NCBI GenBank assembly: GCA_003282105.1
Contig: QCAB01000007.1
Span: forward strand, 1 to 38,413
DNA: 38,413 nucleotides
From: SAR86 cluster bacterium AG-339-G14
Lineage (GTDB): Bacteria; Pseudomonadota; Gammaproteobacteria; Magnimaribacterales; AG-339-G14
Direction of reading: 5' to 3'
The translations under genes and the position numbers were made by a program. The notes under the pieces are model-generated. The model had not been told where the DNA came from. It saw only the letters and a list, made by a program, of their open reading frames with translations, and did not search any database. Positions 668 to 37,912 of the stretch are shown piece by piece. How positions within the stretch are numbered: position 1 is the stretch's first letter; every line of letters starts with the position of its first letter.

Positions 668-820
668 AGCGAAGTTGAAGGGGCCTAGCGGGCTTCCTAG
701 TGTTGGACTTTACCCCGTGTCCATCATGTGGTGAAATTTCTTTCAGCTTTTCACCCTTCTCCTTCTTTCTACTATTCTCTTTTTTATCGTCTCGAGTTGT
801 TAAAACGTCCTCTAGTAGAT
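635..820 (-). ncRNA. Candidate structured RNA or trpS leader
   Basis: This roughly 185-nt stretch between tRNA-Ser and trpS has no open frame but carries structure. A stem GGTGAAA/TTTCACC lies at 730-755 with a 12-base loop. Near the 3' end a GGGG/CCCC pairing encloses CTAG/CTAG at about 679-716, and the 3' end is the terminator hairpin at 640-660. A promoter-like pair (TTGATC, 16 bases, TAAGAT) lies just upstream. Four GGA motifs (in GAGGACG, AAGGAGA, ATGGACA and AGGAAG) leave a CsrB/RsmY-type sponge possible. I do not recognise it as 4.5S, 6S, tmRNA or RNase P RNA. It could be an independent sRNA or an attenuated trpS leader. Confidence 0.4.
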
Positions 821-16568: not shown

Positions 16569-17996
16569 TTATCCGATTTGAGTTCTCATCTCCTTTATAG
16601 CTGCTTCCCATGGTTCTGCGACCTCAAGTTGTCTAGCTAGACCGAACAACAACGATTCATTCCCGAACGAAGCCGTCAGCATTGTTCCTACTGGAAGATT
16701 TTTAGGCGTGCGGTATAAAGGAAGAGAAATTGATGGATGACCAGATTGATTAAAAATACCTGTAAATGGAGTATAAGTAGATAGTTTTTCTGCGTAGTCA
16801 ACAAAATCAGTGGTATTTAAATCTATGTTACCAATCTCAACCGGGGGCTTAGCCAAAACCGGGCTGAGCAGGATGTCATAATCTAAGAACATCTTTTCAA
16901 CCTCATAACCTATTTTATGATTGGTCTTAACAGCTTGAATGTAATCTTTTGCCAATACCTCTTTACCATTTTTTTGCATTTGGAGCGTAACGTTTTCCAG
17001 CATCGTATTGTCTAAGTTTTTTCCAATTTGTTTTTCCATCTCATCGATCTTGTTTGCCAAACTAGAAGAAATAACTGCCGCTATGGTTGTCATTATTTCA
17101 TCGGTTGGAAGATCAATTGATTTACTTTCAACAGAATGGCCAAGACTTTCTAATAAAGAAAAGGTTTTGGTCATTACGTCTTTCACTTCAGCATCAATTG
17201 AAATACTCTCGGGAACAATATAAGCAATCTTTAGATTTTTTGGATCCTTTTCTAGAGATGAAAGAAAAGAATCTTTTTGATAAGGCGCATGATATGGACT
17301 ACCAATTTCAGGACCTGAGGTTGCATCCAATAGGAGCGCACTATCTCTAACTGATATTGATACGCAATGGGCAATAGATTGACCGGCCCATCCTTCAAAA
17401 ACTTTTGGACCTCTTGGAGTTCTTGCTCTAGTAGGTTTCAAACCAACTAAACCGCAGCAAGAAGCTGGTATTCTAATCGAACCTCCCCCATCAGTTGCTT
17501 GAGCCATAGGTATAATACCTGCTGCAACTGCAGCAGCTGCACCACCACTTGAACCGCCAGCCGAATGATTTAAATTCCAAGGATTTCTTGTAGGACCAAA
17601 TAGCACCGGTTCGGTTGTGACTGTTAAACCAAATTCAGGAGAATTAGTTTTTCCGAAAATTACCAAACCAGAATCCAAACATCTTTGAGTTAAAGTATCA
17701 GTGAAATCAGCCACATTCTTTGCGCTCGACCTCGAGCCGTCAGAAGTGATTGTGCCTTCTAAAGAAGAATGTAAATCTTTTAATAAAAAAGGGACGCCGA
17801 AGAAAGGTCCTTTCAGATCGGTTTCAGCTTGAGCCATAGCAAGCTCAAAGTGTTTTTGGGGCACTGCATTTATAAGGGGATCTAATGTCTCAGTTAAAAA
17901 AATTGCCTCTTCTAATAATTCCTTAGCAGAGACTTCTTTTTTCTTAAGCAACTCAGAGAGGCCTAATGCGTCATACTCTTTATATTCTTTAAACAT
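16569..17996 (-). CDS. Amidase (amidase signature family)
   Basis: A 475-residue serine amidase. The amidase signature GGSSGGAAAAVAAGIIP with downstream DGGGSIRIPASCCGLVGLKPTR provides the Ser-cisSer pair, and the catalytic Lys lies in VPFLLKDLHS near residue 75. It hydrolyses an amide to acid and ammonia; GatA is the best-known relative, but no GatB/C genes are nearby and the sequence is closer to stand-alone amidases. The longer frame starts with a TTG at 18008; the ATG at 17996, one base after the dihydroorotase stop, is preferred. Last gene of the five-gene overlapping run, next to the dihydroorotase-like gene, so a nitrogen or pyrimidine-related substrate is possible. Confidence 0.92.
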   Translation of the reverse strand: MFKEYKEYDALGLSELLKKKEVSAKELLEEAIFLTETLDPLINAVPQKHFELAMAQAETDLKGPFFGVPFLLKDLHSSLEGTITSDGSRSSAKNVADFTDTLTQRCLDSGLVIFGKTNSPEFGLTVTTEPVLFGPTRNPWNLNHSAGGSSGGAAAAVAAGIIPMAQATDGGGSIRIPASCCGLVGLKPTRARTPRGPKVFEGWAGQSIAHCVSISVRDSALLLDATSGPEIGSPYHAPYQKDSFLSSLEKDPKNLKIAYIVPESISIDAEVKDVMTKTFSLLESLGHSVESKSIDLPTDEIMTTIAAVISSSLANKIDEMEKQIGKNLDNTMLENVTLQMQKNGKEVLAKDYIQAVKTNHKIGYEVEKMFLDYDILLSPVLAKPPVEIGNIDLNTTDFVDYAEKLSTYTPFTGIFNQSGHPSISLPLYRTPKNLPVGTMLTASFGNESLLFGLARQLEVAEPWEAAIKEMRTQIG

Positions 17997-33376: not shown

Positions 33377-33452
33377 TGGAGCGATTGACGGGGTTCGAAC
33401 CCGTGGCCTCGACCTTGGCAAGGTCGCGCTCTACCAGCTGAGCTACAATCGC
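33377..33452 (-). tRNA. tRNA-Gly(GCC)
   Basis: A 76-base tRNA including an encoded CCA. The acceptor stem pairs GCGATTG with CAATCGC, the anticodon loop TTGCCAA gives GCC, reading GGC/GGU glycine codons, and the T arm ACGGGTTCGAACCCGT is intact. A decayed gene begins directly after the CCA. Confidence 0.98.
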
Positions 33453-33534: not shown

Positions 33535-33563
33535 TTGACCTTCAAAGATTTTTTTTATATCTT
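33535..33563 (+). promoter_or_regulatory. Promoter of the candidate small RNA
   Basis: TTGACC (33535-33540) and TATCTT (33558-33563) are 17 bases apart. The predicted start, about 33570, coincides with the first base of a ten-base-pair hairpin. Confidence 0.5.
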
Positions 33564-33568
33564 ATATT

Positions 33569-33641
33569 GCTTCTTGTGTAAGGGGGAGATTCACAAGAAG
33601 CTCCAAAAAAAAACTCCAGCTTATAGAGCTGGAGTTTTTTT
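33569..33641 (+). ncRNA. Candidate ~70-nt small RNA, two hairpins
   Basis: A perfect ten-base-pair stem GCTTCTTGTG/CACAAGAAGC (33569-33601) has the 13-base loop TAAGGGGGAGATT. A short A-rich single-stranded spacer (33604-33610) and a strong terminator hairpin with T tail (33611-33641) follow. A sigma-70-like promoter places the transcription start at the foot of the first hairpin. There is no start codon with a sensible frame. The purine-rich loop could pair with C/U-rich target sequences, or bind a protein. It lies antiparallel to the proteorhodopsin gene, and the terminator serves both. Class not recognised. Confidence 0.55.
33611..33641. terminator. Bidirectional terminator (small RNA / proteorhodopsin)
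   Basis: Stem AAACTCCAGCT/AGCTGGAGTTT (33611-33621 with 33627-33637), loop TATAG, with T or A tracts on both sides. On the minus strand it follows the proteorhodopsin stop codon by about a dozen bases. Confidence 0.92.
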
Positions 33642-33649
33642 ATTTAAAA

Positions 33650-34366
33650 TTAACTTGAATAAGAACTTTCAGTTGAAGTCTCTGAATCTGCTTTAGCAGC
33701 AGCCCAAATCGCTAAACCGAATAAAGTTTTGTTAATTAAATCAGCTAAGTTGTAAATGATATTTAAAGAGTTTGCATCTACACCGCCACCGAAATATCCA
33801 ATTGCATATCCCAATGGGTAAATTGCCCAACCAACTGTTACGATCCATTTAATGGTCGTAAATGCTTGTTGACTAGCAGCGTTGCCACTTCCAGCATTTG
33901 CCGCAGCAGTCTCACCAAAGAAAATTTCGTAGATGATGTAAAACCAAGCAATCATTCCAAGAACCCAACCAATGGTGACATCCATTAGACCGGTTTCTCC
34001 AAGATAACCAAAAACTAGCATCAAAATTGAAGCAATTAAAAGTTTCCAAAAAATCATCACGCTTATGGTAGTCACCGCCGCAACAATTAAATAAAACTCA
34101 ATTATTTGTAAAGGCACCGTAATTAACCAATCAATATATCTGTAAACAGTTGGGGTATCGCCAACCATCACCCAGATATCTCTCATGTAAAGATAATGCC
34201 AGAAAGCTACTCCAGTAACTAAACCTGCGACAGTCAAAGAGGTTTTCCACTTCCCTTTTACATCGGATCTTTCAATAAAGAAAAAAACGGTTGATGCAAG
34301 CATAATTGCTGTAGCTAGCCAAAAAGAAATACCAACGTAGTCGTTAGTAGCTAGAACATATTCCAT
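33650..34366 (-). CDS. Proteorhodopsin, blue-absorbing type, proton pump
   Basis: A 238-residue seven-helix retinal protein that pumps protons out of the cell in light. Against the green-absorbing reference, the Schiff base Lys is 213 (Lys231, in NLADLINKTLFG), the counterion is Asp79 (Asp97) with Asp209 (Asp227), and the DTE set is Asp79/Thr83/Glu90, diagnostic of an outward proton pump. His57 corresponds to His75. The spectral tuning position (105) is Gln87, which marks a blue-absorbing pigment. The usual N-terminal signal peptide is absent; the protein starts MEYVLATNDYVG. A good ribosome-binding site GGGAGAG supports that start. It is monocistronic with a strong terminator. Retinal synthesis genes are not in the window. 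Confidence 0.98.
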   Translation of the reverse strand: MEYVLATNDYVGISFWLATAIMLASTVFFFIERSDVKGKWKTSLTVAGLVTGVAFWHYLYMRDIWVMVGDTPTVYRYIDWLITVPLQIIEFYLIVAAVTTISVMIFWKLLIASILMLVFGYLGETGLMDVTIGWVLGMIAWFYIIYEIFFGETAAANAGSGNAASQQAFTTIKWIVTVGWAIYPLGYAIGYFGGGVDANSLNIIYNLADLINKTLFGLAIWAAAKADSETSTESSYSS

Positions 34367-34443
34367 AATATCTCTCCCGGATATATAAATTATTAATAAT
34401 TATCCTAATGATACAACAAAAGTGAATAATTTTAAATTTTTAG

Positions 34444-37838: not shown

Positions 37839-37868
37839 TCCTTGGTTTTGAGGGTATAAGTAAATGAA

Positions 37869-37901
37869 AAAAGCAGGCAAGGGAGGCTTGCCTGCTTTTT
37901 A
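37869..37901 (-). terminator. Terminator of the ammonium transporter gene
   Basis: Stem AAAAGCAGGCAAG/CTTGCCTGCTTTT (37869-37881 with 37887-37899), loop GGAGG. On the minus strand the T run after the stem ends the amt transcript before the TonB receptor promoter. Confidence 0.88.
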
Positions 37902-37912
37902 TTAGGGAGAAA

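Follow-up and report, generated by a model that had tools for sequence, protein, structure and literature searches.

In a SAR86 bacterium, does the short gap beside the gene for proteorhodopsin (PR), a light-driven proton pump, hold a small RNA (sRNA) gene of its own, and, if so, what might that RNA do? The question arises from a stretch of 38,413 nucleotides (the window hereafter), taken from an assembly of 868 kb that is 70% complete (G000). To our knowledge, the regulation of proteorhodopsin in ocean bacteria is largely open. We compared the locus with the 40 genomes of the SAR86 family to which the window belongs (f1), seven of which make up the window's own genus (g1); further genera of the family are labelled g2–g4 and other families of the order f2–f4.

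The unit occupies positions 33535–33641 of the plus strand. It opens with a sigma-70-type promoter (33535–33563), whose hexamers TTGACC (33535–33540) and TATCTT (33558–33563) lie 17 nt apart. The transcript predicted from this promoter, about 73 nt in length (33569–33641, +), would begin with a first hairpin (33569–33601, +) that has a perfect 10 bp stem with arms GCTTCTTGTG (33569–33578) and CACAAGAAGC (33592–33601). An A-rich linker leads to an intrinsic terminator with a perfect 15 bp stem (33607–33641, +), which, being palindromic, can also be used by the convergent PR gene on the minus strand (33650–34366; PF01036, E = 2.5e-44). The Shine-Dalgarno sequence of that gene, GGGAGAG (34372–34378, −), resembles the sRNA loop, and on the other side of the unit lies tRNA-Gly(GCC) (33377–33452, −). 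Promoter, ten-base-pair hairpin and strong terminator are therefore where the preliminary description had put them. Its GGGGGAG loop is present as a motif, but the loop itself has 13 nt (UAAGGGGGAGAUU); two extra A-U pairs may form within it, according to the modelled fold, which would leave GGGGGAGA (33582–33589) open. The reported absence of a coding frame also holds, in that there is no open reading frame of at least 60 amino acids inside the locus and no start codon after the G-run that is common to the genera carrying the sRNA. A mini-ORF following GGGGGAG was rejected, its ATG being seen in most g4 copies only. Rejected as well, by reasoning on geometry, was a pseudoknot between GAG of the loop and CUC after the stem, there being no linker to span the 10 bp stem.

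How much of this layout exceeds chance? Folding of the 73-nt RNA gives two hairpins with an energy of −34.9 kcal/mol (z = −7.3), a stability reached by none of 200 shuffled sequences. The promoter match by itself is at chance level, with 10 sites in the region against 9.3 expected from shuffles, and a simple terminator scan did not pick up the terminator at 33607–33641. Because the promoter pair is no better than chance, the case was built on comparison among genomes; it is conservation that raises promoter and terminator above chance.

A covariance model of the hairpin locates the unit in 25 of the 40 f1 genomes and in three genera, namely g1 (7/7), g3 (6/8) and g4 (12/16), with none in g2 (0/9). 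By DNA search all seven genomes of g1 were matched, the six relatives at 87–93% identity, together with part of g3 at about 74% and always between tRNA-Gly(GCC) and PR; the g4 copies were found by the covariance model. Common to the 25 genomes are a TTGAC-17 nt-TA..TT promoter, a 10–11 bp hairpin with a GGGGGAGA loop, an A-rich linker and a terminator. A pattern of promoter plus loop recovered the same 25 loci and scattered single matches, with matches to the reversed-pattern control nearly absent. Across the order (203 genomes), the covariance model gave only weak, unrelated matches in other families, and those in G058, G064, G074, G114 and G177 were rejected since the surrounding sequence is unrelated. 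After retraining, the model returned no match beyond the genus in 369 genomes sampled from the class (about 365 other Gammaproteobacteria) and nothing convincing in the f1 genomes without the sRNA. Scanning 84,980 species genomes for the exact pattern placed 23 SAR86 loci at 54.8 bits or more and everything else at 24.1 bits or less. No Rfam 15 family exceeds its gathering cut-off for the sRNA. A literature search on SAR86 or PR together with small RNAs yielded nothing relevant, and an unnamed earlier sighting is possible among the psRNAs of station ALOHA from 2009 (cited in PMC13414033). The gene is apparently lineage-restricted and undescribed.

The pattern of conservation supports the sRNA gene. 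Among the seven g1 genomes, identity reaches 100% in the promoter hexamers and 98.3% in the hairpin, against 82.9% in the promoter spacer and 82.8% in the upstream gap. At all 25 loci the hexamers and their 17-nt spacing are kept, and GGGGGAGA is identical in 25 of 25 sequences while the stem varies. Thus, g4 has GTCCCTTGTGC/GTGCAAGGGGC where g1 has GCTTCTTGTG/CACAAGAAGC, and three stem pairs show changes on both sides. The covariation score is 0.400, compared with 0.239 in shuffles (0 of 500 as high), and all 130 cells (100%) are paired. These counts lean toward the model structure, since a model of that very structure guided the alignment; the arms align without gaps, and the stem changes reflect few independent events. 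A lack of conservation or of compensatory changes of the hairpin in relatives had been set beforehand as one refutation of the sRNA, and what we find is a hairpin conserved across relatives with compensatory changes. The strand can be read from the same substitutions, the G-U pairs of the g4 stem being compatible with the plus strand only. A minus-strand element in the 3' UTR of PR was rejected, since the g4 pairs become A-C mismatches there and the minus strand folds much worse. That the locus might be unexpressed, a terminator with a chance hairpin beside it, would agree with a promoter match that is by itself at chance, but the covariation, and hexamers and spacing that stay unchanged across three genera, speak against it, and we consider it very improbable. 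With a conserved promoter of its own, a covarying plus-strand hairpin, a terminator and no coding frame, 33535–33641 is very probably an independent, trans-encoded sRNA gene of SAR86, as had been suggested.

What does the sRNA accompany? It is convergent with PR in each of the 25 genomes. In g1 and g3 it sits between tRNA-Gly and PR, whereas in g4 the tRNA-Gly is about 900 nt away, with what looks by eye like a Sir2-type gene in between, so that PR is the constant neighbour. The location first given thus stands in every sRNA-bearing genus as regards PR, and in g1 and g3 only as regards tRNA-Gly. Six g3 and g4 genomes lack the sRNA, and PR is also absent from their assemblies; the neighbours of PR are different ones in g2 and in the remaining families, and no RNA of this kind adjoins it there. 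This constancy of PR as neighbour wherever a genus has the sRNA lends support to the tie to PR that was earlier put forward as speculation; the light- or energy-linked role suggested alongside is conjecture. The same convergence, together with the palindromic terminator in common, could mean that the transcript acts on PR in cis, either interfering with its transcription or pairing as antisense through the terminator ends that the two have in common. We regard such an effect as quite improbable, for it leaves unexplained the invariant loop and the covarying stem, both located outside the overlap.

The seed of a classical base-pairing sRNA typically looks like this, an unchanging loop on a stem that covaries, and GGGGGAGA might kiss or pair with a single pyrimidine-rich RNA or a small number of them; this is the main rival to the decoy reading developed below. 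The analysis covered the complete genome G005 in full and a large part of G026. In G005, 0 of 17 TCTCCCCC sites and 0 of 43 CTCCCCC sites lie near a start codon, and among 960 G005/G026 orthologue pairs 3 share a loop-complementary site, where permuted loops give 3.4 on average, although enrichment tests of this kind would miss a single target. Since complements of the loop show no enrichment around start codons, the C/U-rich translation starts envisaged as targets in the preliminary description are unsupported. Neither Hfq (PF17209) nor ProQ (PF04352) was found in any of the 40 f1 genomes, with positive controls for both, which is a further point against base pairing. A possible partner for the loop is a CU-rich patch at 37868–37912 of the window, between the stop codon of an ammonium transporter and its terminator (TTTCTCCCTAATAAAA; CCTCCCCCTAAAA in g4). 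It lies upstream of a PR-linked TonB-receptor gene in both g1 and g4, and its sequence varies. Taken together, we consider base pairing with few targets possible, if somewhat unlikely.

The loop motif recurs, in its own sense, at the starts of mRNAs. First, the PR Shine-Dalgarno sequence includes GGGAG in 24 of 24 sRNA-bearing genomes and in 0 of 8 genomes of g2, the sister genus without the sRNA, a comparison confounded by ancestry. Second, GGGGGA(G) is conserved in the PR leader of 29 of 32 genomes of family f2, where it lies at −46 to −39 relative to the start of PR. It has the look of a cis leader element not described before, and a small hairpin often comes between it and the Shine-Dalgarno sequence (L270–L287, L289–L299, L104–L113). 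Third, a TonB-dependent receptor mRNA has its start codon in a hairpin, TTAAACAT-TATGGGGGAGATT-ATGTTTAA (L216, near 17554–17582; G005:C1:136954), whose loop TATGGGGGAGATT shares 12 of its 13 bases with that of the sRNA; in G026 this ribosome-binding-site hairpin is not preserved. In G026, GGGGGA precedes 2 of 5 TonB-receptor starts and 1 of 1082 other genes, although the numbers are small and the seeds were chosen by motif. Matches to the 13-nt loop near starts are mildly above expectation, 5 against a mean of 1.5 for shuffled motifs, with 7 of 200 shuffles as high. Since Shine-Dalgarno motifs are purine-rich, the likeness of the loop to them could be partly trivial. Elsewhere in G005 (C1 near 44731, minus strand; L212), an intergenic hairpin, GCCCATTGAT-TTAAAAAGGGGGAG-ATCAATGGGC, with two more GGA motifs adjoins polA, and is possibly a second RNA with the same loop motif.

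Which factor could read such a motif? CsrA would be a candidate, with GGGGGA offering it a GGA and the RNA titrating it off the PR and TonB-receptor leaders. CsrA occurs in 34 of the 40 f1 genomes, where Hfq and ProQ were not found (its search was negative in the window's own assembly, 70% complete); the GGA lies within a hairpin loop, and a similar motif overlaps Shine-Dalgarno sites. CsrA-titrating RNAs, however, carry several GGA sites, or ANGGAN hexaloops on short stems (PMC7652899), and against these usual rules the sRNA has a single conserved GGA, no ANGGAN and a stem of 10 bp or more; in the predicted g3/g4 fold the GGA is partly paired. Nor does the distribution agree. Within the order (202 genomes) CsrA is present in f1 and f3 and was not found in f2 and f4, and both g2 and f3 possess CsrA but lack the sRNA. 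The f2 PR leaders carry the motif though CsrA was not found in f2, so CsrA cannot explain them. That CsrA is what the sRNA sequesters seems to us quite improbable.

Because the loop motif recurs at mRNA starts, we favour, with modest confidence, a decoy that mimics an mRNA leader. The sigma-70 promoter would start the RNA of about 73 nt at the foot of the hairpin, and we infer that it is expressed; the stable hairpin would present GGGGGAGA, the putative working part; and the RNA would end at the terminator common to it and the convergent PR gene. The loop would imitate the G-rich leader to which ribosomes bind in the mRNAs of PR and of some TonB receptors, and compete for whatever factor binds that element, and the competition might tune synthesis of the pump and the receptors without Hfq or ProQ. 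Gene and decoy mechanism together we hold to be plausible, if short of probable. Stated in full, namely that a PR-linked RNA in a lineage without Hfq or ProQ copies with its G5 loop a leader element of PR and TonB receptors and titrates the reader of that element, which f2 has in cis, the proposal is unlikely, if conceivable.

If the sRNA gene is accepted, the abundant, uncultured SAR86 gains a small RNA that accompanies a pump gene in three genera, and it would serve as an example of a streamlined genome that uses an sRNA and in which Hfq and ProQ were not found. Reporter constructs offer a direct test of the G-rich element that the sRNA loop has in common with PR leaders and the start regions of some TonB receptors.

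Several known systems bear comparison. IMES-5 RNA (RF02995), a marine RNA family, occurs in the same window (670–817, −; 124.8 bits) and in the same genomes, beside tRNA-Ser(TGA). Within the order it is confined to f1 and f3, the two families with CsrA. A role as a CsrB-like sponge was rejected; IMES-5 is not obviously CsrB-like because its GGA motifs are not conserved. It differs from the SAR86 sRNA in sequence, in its doubled length, in its presence in f3 and in the tRNA beside it. The best sub-threshold Rfam matches of the sRNA, BSnc120 (RF02621; 33.8 bits, cut-off 114) and RsaE (RF01820; 32.2 bits, cut-off 79), have a similar size and hairpin-terminator layout and are taken as chance. With CsrB/CsrC, RsmX/Y/Z and the short McaS, the sRNA has in common a GGA in a hairpin loop, CsrA in the family and the motif at Shine-Dalgarno sites; unlike them, it has one GGA, no ANGGAN loop and a long, stable stem (10–11 bp). 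As to general kind, it resembles those free-standing bacterial sRNAs of intergenic regions that have a promoter of their own, a 5' hairpin and an intrinsic terminator, and which agree with it in layout, size and intergenic position, and in a conserved loop on a covarying stem. The SAR86 sRNA departs from these in its host family without detected Hfq or ProQ, in having no Rfam match and in its constant partner gene, PR. Its layout is ordinary; its partner gene and its setting are what make it interesting.
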